Part shown: piece by piece, positions 8,124 through 21,016 of the stretch | Position numbering within the stretch: position 1 is the stretch's first letter | Layout: the number at the start of each line of letters is the position of its first letter | From: a virus | DNA: 23,202 nucleotides | Strand: one strand, 5' to 3' | Virus record (IMG/VR): IMGVR_UViG_3300042197_000926 | Span: 1-23,202 of that record | The notes under the pieces: generated by a model | What the model was told of the DNA's origin: nothing | The model's input: only the letters and a program-made list of their open reading frames with translations | Database searches by the model: none | Program-made: the position numbers and the translations under genes

Positions 8124-8648
8124 ATGACTTGTATTGCTGTAGTAAAACATGATGGTAAAGTTTATATGGCTGGAGATCGTGGAGCATCAGATGATGGAAC
8201 GATCCTTGCTCTTGACGCACCCAAAGTTTGGAAGATAGGTCAATACCTTGTTGGATATGCAGGGGCATTAGACGGAGAAAGAATTCGTTACAATTTTAAG
8301 CCAACCGCACCCAACATTAAAGATACAGATAAATTTATGCAGACTAAATTTATTAAAGAACTAAGAGAATTTTATAATGAATTCTGGGTTGATACTACAA
8401 AAGACGGAGATCTTGGTTTGATTATTTCTATTCGTGGAGAGATATATGAACATAGTGCCGTAGATATGTCTTTATCTAAATATACAGTTCCATATCTAGC
8501 CATGGGAACTGGAGCGGAATATGCGTATGGGGTTTTGTATGCCACAGACAAACAAAAAAATGCAAGAAATAGAGTTCTTCAGGCAGTTAATGCAGCCATA
8601 AAATTTAACCCATCCTGCATGGGTCCAGTTGACATTGTCAGTGCTTAA
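8124..8648 (+). CDS. HslV/20S proteasome-like Ntn protease
   Basis: 174 residues, a single-domain HslV-size protein. After removal of Met the chain begins with Thr. Counting from that Thr, D17 (in MAGDRGAS) and K33 (in DAPKVWKIG) fall exactly at the T1/D17/K33 catalytic positions of HslV and proteasome beta subunits. LVGYAGALDG and YLAMGTGAEYAYG match the GFAGG and IAIGSGG-type segments of HslV. These enzymes form ring-shaped, self-compartmentalised proteases. No unfoldase (HslU or other AAA+) is seen in the window. It could be a head-maturation, host-degrading or scaffold protease; that is open. It has its own promoter and sits in the lysis region. Confidence 0.78.
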   Translation: MTCIAVVKHDGKVYMAGDRGASDDGTILALDAPKVWKIGQYLVGYAGALDGERIRYNFKPTAPNIKDTDKFMQTKFIKELREFYNEFWVDTTKDGDLGLIISIRGEIYEHSAVDMSLSKYTVPYLAMGTGAEYAYGVLYATDKQKNARNRVLQAVNAAIKFNPSCMGPVDIVSA

Positions 8649-9815: not shown

Positions 9816-10463
9816 ATGGCAGTTAAAGGTAGTCTAGAAGCAATCATTGAGGTTGCAAAGAAAGAAATTGGAACCATTGAAGGTCCAAAAGACAATGAAA
9901 CAAAGTACGGTAAGTGGACAGGTGCAAACTTTTTGCCGTGGTGTCAGTCATTTGTTTCTTGGTGTGCATTCACTGCAGGGCTAGATCCAAAGAAATATCC
10001 GAAGTCTGCAGCGACAATAGCAGCATCAGACTGGTTTAAAAAGAATGATCGTTGGGCAGATGCTCGTAACGATGATCCAACTCCAGGCGATTGGATTTAT
10101 TTTGATTTCCCAGACGATGGGGTAAATAGAATTTCACATGTTGGTCTATGCATTAAGAATAATGGAGATGGAACAATTCAGGTTATTGAAGGAAATACTT
10201 CAGGAACCGCTAAGGGTGATCAGCGTAATGGTGGCATGTGCGTAGAAAAGACTCGTGCATACGTAAAGAACAACAAAAAGAAACTAATTAATGCTGTTGT
10301 AGGCTGGGGACGACCAGTTTATGCTGGAGAAGAAAACCTTCCACTATTAAGCAAGGTTGGTTCATCTGATACGGCAGCACCAGCAGCACCAACGAAGCCT
10401 GTTGTAAAGAAAAAGAAAAAGGCTTCAGGTGGCGGTGGAGGAAAAGTACAGGTGGCACTGTGA
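9816..10463 (+). CDS. CHAP-domain endolysin
   Basis: 215 residues, excellent Shine-Dalgarno (AAGGAGGA, 5 nt before ATG). The CHAP cysteine peptidase/amidase residues are C43 in LPWCQSFVSW, H108 in RISHVGLC, and E125/N127 in VIEGNTSG. CHAP enzymes cut peptidoglycan cross-bridges or stem peptides. A linker rich in Ala, Pro and Lys follows, ending KKKKKASGGGGGKVQVAL, probably the cell-wall or export end. No signal peptide, so release should depend on a holin; holin-like genes lie 2 kb upstream. The C-terminal KKK-SGGGG-K tail also occurs on the membrane protein at 17338-17637. Confidence 0.85.
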   Translation: MAVKGSLEAIIEVAKKEIGTIEGPKDNETKYGKWTGANFLPWCQSFVSWCAFTAGLDPKKYPKSAATIAASDWFKKNDRWADARNDDPTPGDWIYFDFPDDGVNRISHVGLCIKNNGDGTIQVIEGNTSGTAKGDQRNGGMCVEKTRAYVKNNKKKLINAVVGWGRPVYAGEENLPLLSKVGSSDTAAPAAPTKPVVKKKKKASGGGGGKVQVAL

Positions 10464-10681
10464 TGGAGTCTAAAAAGAAGTCTTTGCTAAAGACTATTAG
10501 TTGGCCATTTGTACATTTTACTTTTGTTTCTGGAATAATTTATCTTGTTCTTAAGTATTATACTGGAGAAGCAGAGTGGGAATATGTCGGTCTTTATGGG
10601 CTATCATATCTAGCATTAGAAATGACATTCTTTTATTTACATGAAAGAGTATGGGCTAAGTTTGGCAGAAAGGTTAAATAA
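10463..10681 (+). CDS. DUF2061-like membrane protein
   Basis: 72 residues from ATG 10463, which overlaps the endolysin stop (TGATG); GTG 10460 is a possible alternative. The sequence SLLKTISWPFVHF, two hydrophobic segments (FVSGIIYLVLKYYTG; VGLYGLSYLALEMTFFYL) and the ending LHERVWAKFGRK match the pattern of DUF2061 membrane proteins: K-x-x-S/T-W-x-x at the start, then HERxW near the end. A second member is encoded at 13236-13442. Function unknown. The downstream gene starts in the stop codon (TAATG). Confidence 0.68.
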   Translation: MESKKKSLLKTISWPFVHFTFVSGIIYLVLKYYTGEAEWEYVGLYGLSYLALEMTFFYLHERVWAKFGRKVK

Positions 10682-10791: not shown

Positions 10792-10976
10792 TGCCATCAT
10801 ATGAATATGATTGTATGTCTTGTGCAATAAGATATACAAAGATTAGATCTATGGCTGACACGGATCCAGGGTATAAATGTGAAACTTGCAATAATGCCCT
10901 GGTTCGTGTATACTCTAATATAGGAGTCACATTTAATGGCTCTGGATTCTATAAAACCGACAATCGGAAGGTATAA
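10791..10976 (+). CDS. FmdB-type zinc-ribbon protein
   Basis: 61 residues. An in-frame start at 10758 is rejected because ATG 10791 gives the canonical FmdB N-terminus MPSYEYDCMSC. The zinc ribbon is C8-x2-C11 and C30-x2-C33, followed by VRVYSNIGVTFNGSGFY, also typical for the family. FmdB-like proteins are small putative regulatory proteins; their real function is not established. TAATG coupling to the gene before, 1-nt gap to the gene after. Confidence 0.82.
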   Translation: MPSYEYDCMSCAIRYTKIRSMADTDPGYKCETCNNALVRVYSNIGVTFNGSGFYKTDNRKV

Positions 10977-10977
10977 T

Positions 10978-11223
10978 ATGTTTACAATGGTTAAAGATGA
11001 GGTAAAGCAAGAGTGGCAGTTATCTCCTATTGATCGATGCGACAGATGTAGCGCAGAGGCTCTTGTTAGAGTAACAGGGCTAAACGGAGATTTATTGTTC
11101 TGTGGCCACCATTACAATAAGATTATGGATAATGCCGTAGGATATGACAAAATGATGAAATTTGCTATTACAATTTTAGACGAAAGAGACAAGTTGGATC
11201 AAAATAAACTAAAGGATAGTTAA
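10978..11223 (+). CDS. DUF7455-type zinc protein of actinobacteria and their phages
   Basis: 81 residues from ATG 10978; an earlier in-frame ATG at 10936 lies inside the FmdB gene and is unlikely. The pattern DRCDRCSAEALVRV (C21, C24) and LLFCGHHYNK (C42, H45) is the short zinc-binding family common in actinobacteria and actinophages. It supports the host inference. Function unknown. The stop overlaps the next start (TAATG). Confidence 0.78.
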   Translation: MFTMVKDEVKQEWQLSPIDRCDRCSAEALVRVTGLNGDLLFCGHHYNKIMDNAVGYDKMMKFAITILDERDKLDQNKLKDS

Positions 11224-11783
11224 TGATAAATAAACTTAGTGAAAAATTTAACTTTAAGTTTCACGGTAATTTTGATGTATCTAGCATAGCAGAACATTTA
11301 TCTACATATTCAGATGAGTGGTTGGAAAACAAGGATAGACAAACTCTTTATGAGGTTCACAAAGACACTAATTCTGTATTTATCTATGATCACGATAATA
11401 CTTGGACTATTGGAGATAGATATGATTTAAAGGTAAACAATAGCAAGTCAGTTATGATTGAACTTGTTTCTCCAATTGTTAAAAGTCTTGAGTTAATTCA
11501 TGATGGCAAAGTTGGGAAATGTGTTTTTATTAAAATGCCTGCATACAAAAGTGTTAGAGAACATGTAGACAGAATGGATTATCTTGGAGCGGTAAGAAGA
11601 CACCATATTCCAATTGTTACTAATAAAGATGTCATATTTTTTGTCAACAAAGAAAGCAAAAACATGAAGGTTGGAGAGTGTTGGGAAATAAATAATAGTT
11701 TTCTGCACAGTGTAGAAAATAATGGTACTACAGACCGCATCCATCTTATGGTGGACATACTACCAAATAAGTTTATTATATGA
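11223..11783 (+). CDS. aspartyl/asparaginyl beta-hydroxylase-like protein
   Basis: 186 residues. The second half fits the Asp/Asn beta-hydroxylase fold: GAVRRHHIPIVTN (H127/H128), then a GECWEINNSFLHSVENNG segment (H162) and DRIHLMVDI (R172, H174). This family uses Fe(II) and 2-oxoglutarate; known members hydroxylate Asp/Asn side chains or related groups. The N-terminal half is not recognised. It overlaps the next gene, a sulfotransferase, by 4 nt (ATGA), so the two are probably made together and may act on the same substrate; that link is inference. Confidence 0.75.
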   Translation: MINKLSEKFNFKFHGNFDVSSIAEHLSTYSDEWLENKDRQTLYEVHKDTNSVFIYDHDNTWTIGDRYDLKVNNSKSVMIELVSPIVKSLELIHDGKVGKCVFIKMPAYKSVREHVDRMDYLGAVRRHHIPIVTNKDVIFFVNKESKNMKVGECWEINNSFLHSVENNGTTDRIHLMVDILPNKFII

Positions 11784-12409
11784 TATACTCAAAAAAACAT
11801 AATTTTTTATTACTAAAAAACTATAAGGTGGGGGGCACATCCCTAGAAGTTGAACTATCTCAGGTATTAGATAATTCTGCAATTGTAACACCAATATATC
11901 CAGCAAACAAATTGCACATTCCAAGAAATTTTGATAAGTTTTATAATCATATACCTTACAGTGAAATAGAAGACTTGTTGGGCAAAGAAACTTTAGACAA
12001 AACCAACACTGTTGTTTTTGTAAGAAATCCTTTTGATGTTGTTTTATCTCACATGTACATGTCTTTTGCTTGGGACAATATAATTATTCCAACAGAAAAA
12101 GATATAGATAATTATTTTAAAAATAATGGTAAATTAAAAAAAATAACAGGACCCTTTTCAAGAAAAATATATACTAAAGATAATGAGATAATGGCAAAAA
12201 CAGTATATAAGTATGAAGATGGGTTAGATCAAATCAATGAAACACTAAAAAATGTTGGAATAGATTTGATATCAATCAGTGCTAAGGAAAAAATGTACAA
12301 GCCAAAAGAAATTAAAGCAAAAGATATTTTTAACTCAAGGCACCTAGATATTATTTCTAAAGATTGGTCTTGGGAAATAGAGCGGTTTGACTATAAAGCA
12401 ATATCATGA
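11780..12409 (+). CDS. sulfotransferase family protein
   Basis: 209 residues. KNYKVGGTSLEVEL (residues 13-26) is the 5'-phosphosulfate-binding loop of PAPS-dependent sulfotransferases. VVFVRNPFDVVLSHMY (78-93) is the 3'-phosphate-binding segment, with R82 and S90 in the expected places. Sulfotransferases move a sulfuryl group from PAPS to sugars, proteins or small molecules. No signal peptide, so it is cytosolic. The next gene, 25 nt downstream, encodes an APS-kinase-like enzyme that could supply PAPS. The acceptor is unknown. Confidence 0.82.
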   Translation: MIYSKKHNFLLLKNYKVGGTSLEVELSQVLDNSAIVTPIYPANKLHIPRNFDKFYNHIPYSEIEDLLGKETLDKTNTVVFVRNPFDVVLSHMYMSFAWDNIIIPTEKDIDNYFKNNGKLKKITGPFSRKIYTKDNEIMAKTVYKYEDGLDQINETLKNVGIDLISISAKEKMYKPKEIKAKDIFNSRHLDIISKDWSWEIERFDYKAIS

Positions 12410-12420
12410 TACTATAGTAT
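12407..12420 (+). promoter_or_regulatory. possible promoter or operator dyad
   Basis: ATACTATAGTAT (12409-12420) is a perfect 12-bp palindrome in the 25-nt gap before the kinase gene. TGATACTAT also resembles an extended -10 box. AGGGG downstream is the Shine-Dalgarno. Weak call. Confidence 0.3.
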
Positions 12421-12434
12421 ATTGAGGGGACGAT

Positions 12435-13193
12435 ATGATTATACAAATTATAGGTTTGCCTGGATCTGGCAAAACCGCACTAGCGACGGCACTCAAAGAA
12501 AGAATTAATGCCATTCATCTTAATGCTGATGAGGTAAGATCTACAGTTAATTCTGATCTTGGATTTACCGCCGAAGATAGGATTGAGCAGGCTCGTCGCA
12601 TGGGAGAGATGGCAAGGCTAATTGCAAATCAGGGTGTTGCTCCTGTCATTGTTGACTTTGTTTGTCCTACTAAAGAAACCAGAGAAGCCTTTGGCCCAGC
12701 AAATATTGTTGTTTGGGTAGACAGAATTAAGCAGGGTAGATTTGAAGATACAAATAAAATGTGGCAAGACCCAGAAAGATTTGATATCAGAATTCTAGAC
12801 GGATACACATTGGAGCAAGAAGTAGATACTGTCATACAGGTAGGTGCATTGTTTGATTGGTCTGCTCCGACCACCTTACAGTTGGGGAGATATCAGCCTT
12901 GGCATGAAGGACATCAGGCTCTTAAAGAAGAGGCTCACAAAAGAACTAAGCAGGTGTTGGTAGGTGTTCGCAATACATATAAGACATCAGAAAAGGATCC
13001 ATTGAAGTATGATGAGGTTGCAACATATATTCAACAAGATAATCCATTTAAGGATACATTAGTATTACGACTGCCCAATATTACCAATATTGTTTATGGT
13101 CGTGATGTTGGGTACAAGATTGAACAAGTAGATTTGGGGTCAGACATTCATGCTATATCGGCTACGCAAAAGCGTAAAGAAATGGGCATCTAA
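12435..13193 (+). CDS. APS kinase-like domain fused to HxGH nucleotidyltransferase
   Basis: 252 residues. The N-terminal P-loop is GLPGSGKT (7-14). LNADEVR (29-35), DLGFTAEDRIEQARRM (41-56) and VIVDFVCPT (71-79) follow the adenylylsulfate (APS) kinase order. From about residue 145 a second domain starts with LGRYQPWHEGHQALKEEA; HEGH (157-160) is the active-site motif of the adenylyl/cytidylyltransferase superfamily, which includes NMNAT and ATP sulfurylase. Together they might make APS and phosphorylate it to PAPS. The second domain is about 110 residues, much shorter than standard ATP sulfurylase, so its substrate is open. AGGGGACG precedes the ATG. Confidence 0.78.
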   Translation: MIIQIIGLPGSGKTALATALKERINAIHLNADEVRSTVNSDLGFTAEDRIEQARRMGEMARLIANQGVAPVIVDFVCPTKETREAFGPANIVVWVDRIKQGRFEDTNKMWQDPERFDIRILDGYTLEQEVDTVIQVGALFDWSAPTTLQLGRYQPWHEGHQALKEEAHKRTKQVLVGVRNTYKTSEKDPLKYDEVATYIQQDNPFKDTLVLRLPNITNIVYGRDVGYKIEQVDLGSDIHAISATQKRKEMGI

Positions 13194-13235
13194 GATATTA
13201 GATAAAATAGGCAATGATAAAATGGAGTGGCCTTC

Positions 13236-13442
13236 GTGAAAGTAACTAGGGCCAGATCATTTGTCAAGGCACTAAGTTATCGCATATGGGGAACTCTTTC
13301 TTCATTTGTTGTCGCCTATGTTATTACAAAAAATGCTACAATATCAGGAGCAATTGCATTTTGGGAAACGGTAGTTAAAGTATTTATCTACTATGCTCAT
13401 GAGCGTGGCTGGAACTATATACAGTGGGGGAGAAAGTCATGA
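13236..13442 (+). CDS. DUF2061 membrane protein
   Basis: 68 residues from GTG 13236, chosen because GGAG lies 8 nt upstream; GTG 13227 has no such spacing. RSFVKALSYRIWGTLSSFVV, then AISGAIAFWETVVKVFIYYA and HERGWNYIQWG are a textbook DUF2061 sequence with two membrane segments. Function unknown. The stop overlaps the ATG of a 21-codon ORF (ATGA). It is the second DUF2061-type gene in the window. Confidence 0.82.
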   Translation: MKVTRARSFVKALSYRIWGTLSSFVVAYVITKNATISGAIAFWETVVKVFIYYAHERGWNYIQWGRKS

Positions 13443-15517: not shown

Positions 15518-15799
15518 ATGAATAGGTATGAATGGAAAGACAATGCTGCATGCCTAGATTATGATACTAATGTTTTTTTTGATAAATACGAAGAAGATGA
15601 ACTGTTAAGGCCTGCTGTAGATTTGCTCTGTTCCCAGTGTCCAGTAAGAAAAGAATGTTTTTCTGTTGGTATTTCTGGAAAAGAGTGGGGAGTTTGGGGC
15701 GGGGTATACTTAGAGAATGGAGAGATATCAAAAGAGTTCTCTAATCATAAAACAAAGGCTGATTGGGGTGTAACATGGCAGTCTCTAACAATGGACTAG
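15518..15799 (+). CDS. WhiB-family iron-sulfur regulator
   Basis: 93 residues. The four Cys that hold the 4Fe-4S cluster are C12 (DNAACLD), C38 and C41 (LLCSQCPV) and C47 (KECF), followed by the turn WGVWGG. WhiB proteins occur only in actinobacteria and their phages. They bind region 4 of the main sigma factor and change promoter choice, often responding to redox state; phage WhiB proteins can block host WhiB function. The tail after the turn is short and lacks an AT-hook, so DNA contact beyond sigma is uncertain. No strong Shine-Dalgarno is seen. Confidence 0.92.
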   Translation: MNRYEWKDNAACLDYDTNVFFDKYEEDELLRPAVDLLCSQCPVRKECFSVGISGKEWGVWGGVYLENGEISKEFSNHKTKADWGVTWQSLTMD

Positions 15800-19934: not shown

Positions 19935-20447
19935 TTACGCTACTACAACCTTAGCAATGGCATTAATTGTTGCAGCAATTCTTCCAATATCTCGAAGTTG
20001 TTCGGTTGTGTACCCTTCTTTCTTCAAGGTATCATAATGAGCCTTAACACAGAAATGACACTTACCAATAATTGATGCTACTAGTGCATATGCTTCAAAC
20101 TTATCTTTTGTTGTACCGCCATGAGATGCGATGGCATTCATTCTAAGTTGTGCAGGTAATCCAGTTAGATTAGGATCATCTGCCATCTCTGTGTATGGAT
20201 ACCAAACATTATTCTGTGCCATTATTGCTGCTGCAGTAAAGGCTGCATTTTTTTCTACTTCATCTGTAACACCAGCAGAAATCATAGCAACAATGTCTTG
20301 ATTACCTGTTGCAAGGGCTGCTGCAAGTGCAAGCGATGAAGAGTAATCGTAATCAAAAGCACTTCTATTTATTACAGCATCAAGGTTTAGTTTAATATCC
20401 TTAGCGTATTCAGGAACAAGTTCTTTTACTTCGTCTACCCAACTCAC
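19935..20447 (-). CDS. ahpD: AhpD-type alkylhydroperoxidase
   Basis: 170 residues. GKCHFCVKAHYDTL gives the redox pair C130/C133 and H137; E118 lies in the KFEAYALV helix. These fall at the same numbers as the active-site residues of M. tuberculosis AhpD; the one difference is the His between the cysteines (position 131 rather than 132). AhpD reduces AhpC through lipoamide and dihydrolipoyl proteins of host metabolism. It overlaps ahpC by 4 nt and is followed by tRNA-Thr. AhpC-AhpD pairs are typical of actinobacteria and unusual in a phage. Confidence 0.92.
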   Translation of the reverse strand: MSWVDEVKELVPEYAKDIKLNLDAVINRSAFDYDYSSSLALAAALATGNQDIVAMISAGVTDEVEKNAAFTAAAIMAQNNVWYPYTEMADDPNLTGLPAQLRMNAIASHGGTTKDKFEAYALVASIIGKCHFCVKAHYDTLKKEGYTTEQLRDIGRIAATINAIAKVVVA

Positions 20448-21016
20448 AAAGTTTCTCCGCCGAGACTTCTATTGCAAGCACAGAGTTCTCCTGTTTGAAG
20501 AGCATCAAGAACACGTAATGTTTCCTCTGGGCTTCTTCCAACATTGAGATTATTTACTGTTACATGCTGAATAACATTGTCTGGATCAATAATAAAGGTT
20601 GCACGAAGAGCAACTCCATCTTCATTAAGGACTCCAAGTTGTTCTGCTAAACCAGTGTATCCATCATCATCTCCATGATATTGCCAACTGCGAACCTGGT
20701 CAGCAAAAGACCATGAGTTGGTTTTCTTTAAATCTTCGTGAGCATTGCGCCATGCAACCTTACAGAATTCATTATCTGTTGAACCTGTCAGCAATACTGC
20801 GTCACGATCATTAAAATCATTTACAAGTTTATCATAAGCCACAATTTCTGTGGGACACACAAAGGTAAAATCTTTAGGGTAATACACAAGAACTTTCCAT
20901 TTTCCTGGAAACCACTTCTCGCTTAATGTTTCAAAAACATCATCAGCACCATCTAGTCTTCCTGGCTTTACGCCAACAATGCGAAATGGATTTAGTTTAT
21001 ATCCAATTGTTTTCAT
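20444..21016 (-). CDS. ahpC: AhpC peroxiredoxin, actinobacterial CxC type
   Basis: 190 residues. Peroxidatic C54 in YPKDFTFVCPTEI. The resolving pair C179/C181 in GELCACNRS matches the CxC tail of mycobacterial AhpC rather than the single Cys of enterobacterial AhpC. It reduces H2O2, organic peroxides and peroxynitrite, with electrons from AhpD. The start ATG is preceded by AGAAAGAG. A leader of about 95 nt with inverted repeats lies upstream. It heads an operon with ahpD, tRNA-Thr and the 52-aa ORF. Confidence 0.94.
   Translation of the reverse strand: MKTIGYKLNPFRIVGVKPGRLDGADDVFETLSEKWFPGKWKVLVYYPKDFTFVCPTEIVAYDKLVNDFNDRDAVLLTGSTDNEFCKVAWRNAHEDLKKTNSWSFADQVRSWQYHGDDDGYTGLAEQLGVLNEDGVALRATFIIDPDNVIQHVTVNNLNVGRSPEETLRVLDALQTGELCACNRSLGGETL

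Follow-up and report, generated by a model that had tools for sequence, protein, structure and literature searches.

Can a phage make PAPS with a single polypeptide, and so sulfate a target independently of its host? The question is raised by three adjacent genes in a 23,202-nucleotide stretch of viral DNA (IMG/VR record IMGVR_UViG_3300042197_000926, positions 1 to 23,202), which is referred to here as the window. A sequence-only reading had described these genes as a sulfation cassette composed of an Asp/Asn-hydroxylase-like gene, a sulfotransferase, and a fusion of an APS kinase-like domain with an HxGH nucleotidyltransferase (NTase) domain. All three open reading frames are found at exactly the positions assigned there, the first two genes sharing 4 bases, and the region is arranged as follows:

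11223-11783, plus strand: Asp/Asn beta-hydroxylase-like 2-oxoglutarate oxygenase, 186 residues (PF05118)
11780-12409, plus strand: sulfotransferase-like protein, 209 residues (5'-PSB and 3'-PB motifs)
12435-13193, plus strand: kinase-NTase fusion, 252 residues, proposed miniature PAPS synthetase (PF01583, phrog_10255)
12435-12839, plus strand: APS-kinase-like domain of the fusion, residues 1-135 (Foldseek PDB matches)
12849-13193, plus strand: HxGH NTase domain of the fusion, residues 139-252, proposed miniature ATP sulfurylase (motifs, AF2 model, operon homologues)
13227-13442, plus strand: DUF2061 small membrane protein, 71 residues, downstream of the fusion (PF09834, 62.3 bits)

The fusion is genuine, as both domains are matched and the protein occurs at full length in many viral contigs. 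The APS_kinase family (PF01583) covers residues 2-85 with 62 bits against a cut-off of 21.1, the HxGH motif is contained in GRYQPWHEGH at residues 151-160 (CTP_transf_like, 21.7 bits), and phrog_10255 matches over the full length. IMG/VR holds at least 589 relatives, the best 80 of which are 74-98% identical across all 252 residues, and the fusion is also present, at 37-42% identity, in a small number of cultured phages (of Stenotrophomonas, Xanthomonas and Clavibacter). The AF2 model, computed from an alignment of 74 diverse sequences, has a pLDDT of 93.4 and a pTM of 0.85. From the evidence set out below we infer, with good confidence, that the fusion is a miniature PAPS synthetase with both activities, its ATP sulfurylase being of a new kind, and that PAPS would be made from sulfate and ATP in one chain.

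The kinase half carries the P-loop GLPGSGKT (residues 7-14), the motif NADxVR (residues 30-35), F44 and R49. In a Foldseek search of the PDB with the model of the fusion, all 50 of the 50 best matches are APS kinases or PAPS synthetases, the closest being Mycobacterium tuberculosis CysC (4rfv, TMt 0.79), and a profile search of the kinase half likewise returns APS kinases. In M. tuberculosis CysC the adenine of APS lies between Phe492 and Phe576, with further contacts from Arg497 and Asp480 (PMC4373884). D32, F44 and R49 of the phage kinase align with Asp480, Phe492 and Arg497 of this site, and across family alignments D32, R35 and F44 are invariant and R49 nearly so (the DGDxxR and GFSxEDR positions). 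The kinase thus groups with APS kinases rather than with polynucleotide or other P-loop kinases, and the APS-site residues of its N-terminal half are kept. The profile match to APS kinases stops near residue 94; the canonical lid KGLYKKARxGxIKxFTG, with its Lys and second Phe, is absent from the kinase half, which has RFEDTNKMWxxP instead (residues 102-113), and the Asn of the EDRxEN motif is replaced by Gln. Against the CysC equivalog model TIGR00455 the kinase half scores 62.8 bits (cut-off 138.7), so that by this model it is a divergent relative and no orthologue. With the site residues kept, the lid replaced and the equivalog score well under the cut-off, we regard the domain as a divergent member of the APS-kinase family. 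APS is its likely acceptor, to which the retained residues point without in themselves amounting to proof; the N-terminal domain would use a second ATP to phosphorylate APS at its 3'-hydroxyl, giving PAPS.

The NTase domain bears, besides its HxGH segment, R179, YGRDVGY (residues 221-227) and ISATQKR (residues 241-247). Scored over 57 diverse sequences, the NMN adenylyltransferase motifs GR[FY]QPxHxGH and ISxTxxR are invariant or nearly so. Modelled alone (114 residues, pLDDT 92.6), the domain has a fold closest to PPAT and NMNAT (1ej2, TMq 0.70), and its profile is closest to archaeal, NadM-type NMNATs (2qjt, E=1e-8; 1f9a, E=6e-8). The profile aligns with the first ~65 residues of NMNATs only, the domain having 114 residues versus about 170, and the part beyond is short and holds the invariant PN(I/V)...YGRxVGY. 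QxRN is the sulfate-binding motif of Sat, and at its position the NTase domain has GRxQ. Neither the 50 best fold matches of the domain nor its profile search includes an ATP sulfurylase, and the fusion has no match to PF01747 (Sat), which bears out the earlier statement that the HxGH domain is unlike classical ATP sulfurylase. The refuting condition named at the same time, an HxGH domain that is clearly NMNAT-like in active-site residues, applies in part: the ATP-binding motif and the fold are NMNAT-like, but the second half of NMNAT is missing and the gene surroundings suggest sulfate. A correspondence of IVYGRDVGY to the Sat motif GRDHAG was considered and dropped, as Sat is returned by neither profile nor fold search. 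The sequence therefore indicates an adenylyl- or cytidylyltransferase of the NMNAT/PPAT kind and does not tell its substrate; the evidence for sulfate is contextual, and the sulfurylase half would be a pared-down NMNAT/PPAT-type adenylyltransferase recruited to this anion.

Such context is provided by bacteria. Among 385 alphaproteobacterial genomes searched for the stand-alone NTase, four of 0.8-1.1 Mb (L483-L486) contain, in a row, genes for a CbiX-like chelatase, uroporphyrinogen-III methyltransferase, CysI, CysH, DUF2061, the kinase and the NTase, the last two as separate genes at the operon end. CysI, CysH and the methyltransferase exceed their NCBIfam cut-offs in the two operon copies scanned, and since the CysH bears CCxxRK and GCxPCT, the signature of APS reductases, APS is needed. 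CysN is absent from all four genomes, which may be incomplete, and Sat from three of them; G591, G665 and G498 thus lack both, the exception being G377, in which Sat lies on another contig. The two extra genes are proposed to encode precisely the two activities that these genomes lack, and outside the exception the NTase stands in for sat/cysDN in sulfur operons of genomes without both. As the bacterial homologues belong to operons for sulfate assimilation or to apr operons, in genomes that mostly have no canonical Sat or CysN, the NTase domain very probably forms APS. The window's own NTase is a long branch in the tree, on which it could have drifted in function. With an APS-kinase-type half and NTase homologues in sulfur operons, the supply of PAPS by one protein remains the favoured reading, and the NTase, being unlike Sat, would indeed represent a new design for such an enzyme, as had been suggested.

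SAR11 bacteria, among the most abundant in the ocean, offer a second context. Pelagibacter ubique has AprBA and no sat or cysDN (PMC5069961), and most SAR11 are without ATP sulfurylase (PMC10356861); with an APS reductase present and sat/cysDN reported lacking, the end of the SAR11 sulfite-oxidation pathway is unexplained. SAR11 genomes mostly encode the kinase and the NTase side by side in separate genes, and another set of genomes shows the NTase alone. In at least 10 genomes the distance between this lone NTase and aprA is 1.39-1.42 kb; the order NTase-aprM-aprB-aprA is seen in the five loci inspected in full, with aprB and aprA over their cut-offs in one. Across 197 SAR11 genomes, 152 have a strong match to the kinase/NTase family, and aprA exceeds its cut-off in 140 of these 152 versus 12 of the 45 others (Fisher 1e-17, a value that ignores kinship, and a family match may involve no more than the kinase half); canonical Sat is found in only 10. 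A search of openly licensed papers turned up none that describes a new ATP sulfurylase from SAR11 or from phages. If the miniature PAPS synthetase reading is right, a new ATP sulfurylase family follows. We hold it likely that the HxGH domain forms a third class of sulfate adenylyltransferase next to Sat and CysDN, derived from NMNAT/PPAT stock and of about 110 residues, which would be the missing ATP sulfurylase of SAR11, would supply the APS that other streamlined alphaproteobacteria use in assimilation and, fused to APS kinase in hundreds of phages, would feed sulfation in hosts unable to make PAPS. For the reported SAR11 gap the NTase is a testable candidate: a protein of ~125 residues beside or co-occurring with aprBA would close it, and expression and assay should be easy.

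Other arrangements also occur in SAR11. Directly 5' of the fused kinase-NTase copies (L091 5000-5974, L095 5001-5981 and others) lies a gene with a pyruvate-kinase barrel (PF00224, about 325 residues), and at L098 7-1398 a paralogous NTase domain, with YGRTVGY replacing YGRDVGY, forms one protein with a class III aminotransferase (PF00202); the NTase superfamily may for these reasons serve more than sulfur. One SAR11 subgroup has the kinase-NTase pair after a DddP-like M24 protein (L219 6767-8002, minus strand; 348 bits, DddP cut-off 600).

In the window phage the most likely user of PAPS would be the adjacent sulfotransferase. This protein reaches 17.7 bits with PF00685 (cut-off 22, E=0.0025), is under every Pfam cut-off and has no PDB match. 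The PAPS-binding loops claimed for it are nevertheless both present and in the right order, KNYKVGGTSL near the N-terminus and FVRNPFDVVLS about 60 residues later. A 72% identical relative also stands directly before the fusion in L039, with nearly identical loops and identical cores (KVGGTS, 5'-PSB; RNPFDVVLS, 3'-PB). This is the only recurrence among 83 related loci and was found by synteny; the IMG/VR search, which missed it, returned no relatives, and there are none among GenBank phages. A motif scan of phage fusion loci recognised five sulfotransferase types, and at least four besides that of the window adjoin the fusion in other phages. Sulfotransfer_3 genes lie close upstream of it in unrelated phages (e.g. 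L123, L145, L166), and four contigs of 70-151 kb (L121, L122, L125 and L138; G732, G733, G736 and G740) each combine the fusion with 5-9 Sulfotransfer_2 matches, most of which stand in arrays, and these are the most promising candidates for a sulfation system in phages. Of the 14 contigs that have both, 8 place the sulfotransferase no farther than 2.5 kb from the fusion, versus 1.6 expected (p=3e-5, with positions that come from related phages); after thinning by lineage it is 5 of 8 (p=4e-4). The presence of a sulfotransferase as such does not correlate significantly with the fusion and was rejected on that ground (14 of 41 contigs >40 kb with the fusion versus 1 of 9 without it, p=0.25), a recognisable one being missing from about two thirds of the fusion contigs of this size. 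In bacteria, Rhizobium sp. BK376 encodes Sulfotransfer_2, APS_kinase and NTase domains in one 555-residue open reading frame, which is not its sole source of APS since CysN is also present, and a Rhodospirillales MAG has a sulfotransferase gene immediately after the kinase/NTase homologue. The other sulfotransferase types near the fusion in unrelated phages, together with the Rhizobium protein, argue that the functional link between sulfotransferase and fusion is real.

The hydroxylase is a clear member of its family (PF05118 Asp_Arg_Hydrox, 55.4 bits, cut-off 22.6) with HxD and the distal His-Arg region present; proline cis-4-hydroxylase (4p7w) is a weak match. About 20 of the 83 loci related to the window contain a relative, and 19 of 47 IMG/VR loci with the hydroxylase also contain the fusion. 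The order hydroxylase-sulfotransferase-fusion, for which other phages were to be searched, is met again in L039. L037 and its relatives have sulfotransferase-hydroxylase-fusion, with a sulfotransferase unrelated to that of the window and hydroxylases 46% identical, and recurrence of the trio in two gene orders favours a joint role. Of the proposed three-gene cassette, then, the link between sulfotransferase and fusion stands, while the unit is not conserved (1 of 83 loci for the sulfotransferase, about 20 of 83 for the hydroxylase). The sulfotransferase target may first be hydroxylated by the neighbouring 2-oxoglutarate oxygenase; we put the chances of a hydroxylate-then-sulfate cassette as a unit at about even, and two-step modification of a single target by these enzymes is a guess.

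Among relatives of the fusion, 74 of 80 close ones and 15 of 79 distant ones have a DUF2061 gene no more than 700 bp away, and the family is common to the phage unit and the cys operon; it is a conserved membrane partner. It was rejected as a general sulfur marker, as it is found in 34 of 150 Pseudomonadota genomes and stands beside canonical cysC-cysH in 1 of 30 loci inspected. Being common without sulfur neighbours, DUF2061 alone proves little; it carries information only through its repeated placement between cysH and kinase-NTase. Upstream of the cassette the window encodes another DUF2061 protein of more divergent sequence (10460-10681, plus strand, 73 residues, PF09834, 30.7 bits). The window also encodes a WhiB-like transcription factor (15518-15799, plus strand, PF02467, 46.7 bits), a hallmark of actinophages (PMC10202952), so that the host is very probably an actinobacterium. 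A DUF7455 gene (10936-11223) is also nearby. Elsewhere lie genes for a proteasome/HslV-like peptidase (8124-8648, plus strand, PF00227, 23.4 bits, phrog_1040) and, in a minus-strand block, an AhpC/TSA-type peroxiredoxin (20444-21016, PF00578, 73.6 bits).

What the PAPS would be for can also be read otherwise. With its enzymology unchanged, the fusion could serve to boost sulfate assimilation in the host as a cysC-type auxiliary gene, with sulfotransferase and hydroxylase as unrelated neighbours. Published work describes phage 'cysC' as an auxiliary gene for sulfate assimilation that is transcribed in lakes (PMC10914622 and PMC9529941), and most fusion phages show no sulfotransferase. Yet in 159 viral loci the fusion has neither cysH nor cysI in its vicinity, which makes sulfation a likelier use of PAPS than reduction; several sulfotransferase types cluster beside the fusion; and the likely hosts, acI, the commonest freshwater actinobacteria, have no assimilatory sulfate reduction and lack the whole reduction pathway (PMC5301498). 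We consider this account possible but doubtful. Under the preferred reading, sulfation with phage-made PAPS, an actinobacterial host from a streamlined freshwater lineage without sulfate assimilation would leave the phage in need of its own PAPS supply.

Two further accounts give the fusion another chemistry. In the first, the kinase would act on an alcohol and the NTase would yield an NDP- or ADP-activated compound, such as a sugar, for surface polysaccharide or tail modification, sulfotransferases being coincidental in decoration islands. The location of fused SAR11 copies among polysaccharide genes and beside the pyruvate-kinase-like gene, the aminotransferase fusion of the paralogous NTase, and glycosyltransferase- or methyltransferase-like genes in some phage loci accord with it; since it leaves unexplained the cysI-cysH operon end, the aprBA adjacency, the aprA co-occurrence, the Rhizobium fusion and the APS-kinase type of the kinase, we find it improbable. 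The second was raised by Casjensviridae, in which the fusion directly follows a NADAR-domain gene (L083, Stenotrophomonas phage Bhz60, 7553-8729), with MazG-like and cysteine dioxygenase genes close by. NadR-like NAD salvage, with the kinase acting on nicotinamide riboside and the NTase turning NMN into NAD, whether against depletion or for metabolism, would suit the NadR-type pairing of kinase and NMNAT, the GRFQPxHxGH motif and the NMNAT-like sequence and fold, but it is highly improbable, as the kinase groups with APS kinases and not ribosylnicotinamide kinases, the profile covers only the first ~65 NMNAT residues with the remainder absent or different, homologues lie in cysI-cysH and aprBA operons or are fused to sulfotransferase, and an unsystematic look at loci outside Casjensviridae recognised no NAD-salvage gene beside the fusion.

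As a miniature PAPS synthetase, the fusion would give phages a self-sufficient sulfate-activation enzyme, with which a virus could sulfate in a host without sulfate assimilation, and its very small size could be useful for PAPS production. Among phage cysC auxiliary genes, as described in PMC10914622 and PMC9529941, it would receive the cysC label from its kinase half; a word search of the two main texts finds the nucleotidyltransferase domain unmentioned in both and sat unmentioned in the former. NadM-type NMNAT and PPAT are nearest to the NTase in sequence and fold, whereas the NTase has a cut-down second half with PNIxxxxYGRxVGY instead and a sulfur gene context. With Sat (PF01747) and CysDN it would have in common the proposed reaction and the place in apr and cys operons, HxGH being common to Sat and NTase; it differs in its size of about 110 residues, in the lack of PF01747, in GRxQP versus QxRNP, and in having no GTPase/PP-loop pair as in CysDN. 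Finally, compared with animal PAPSS1/2, the phage fusion is shorter (about 250 versus about 620 residues), with an NMNAT/PPAT-like half without PF01747 and an altered kinase lid, but shares with them the order of APS kinase and HxGH adenylyltransferase in one chain, the APS-kinase fold and the expected reactions.
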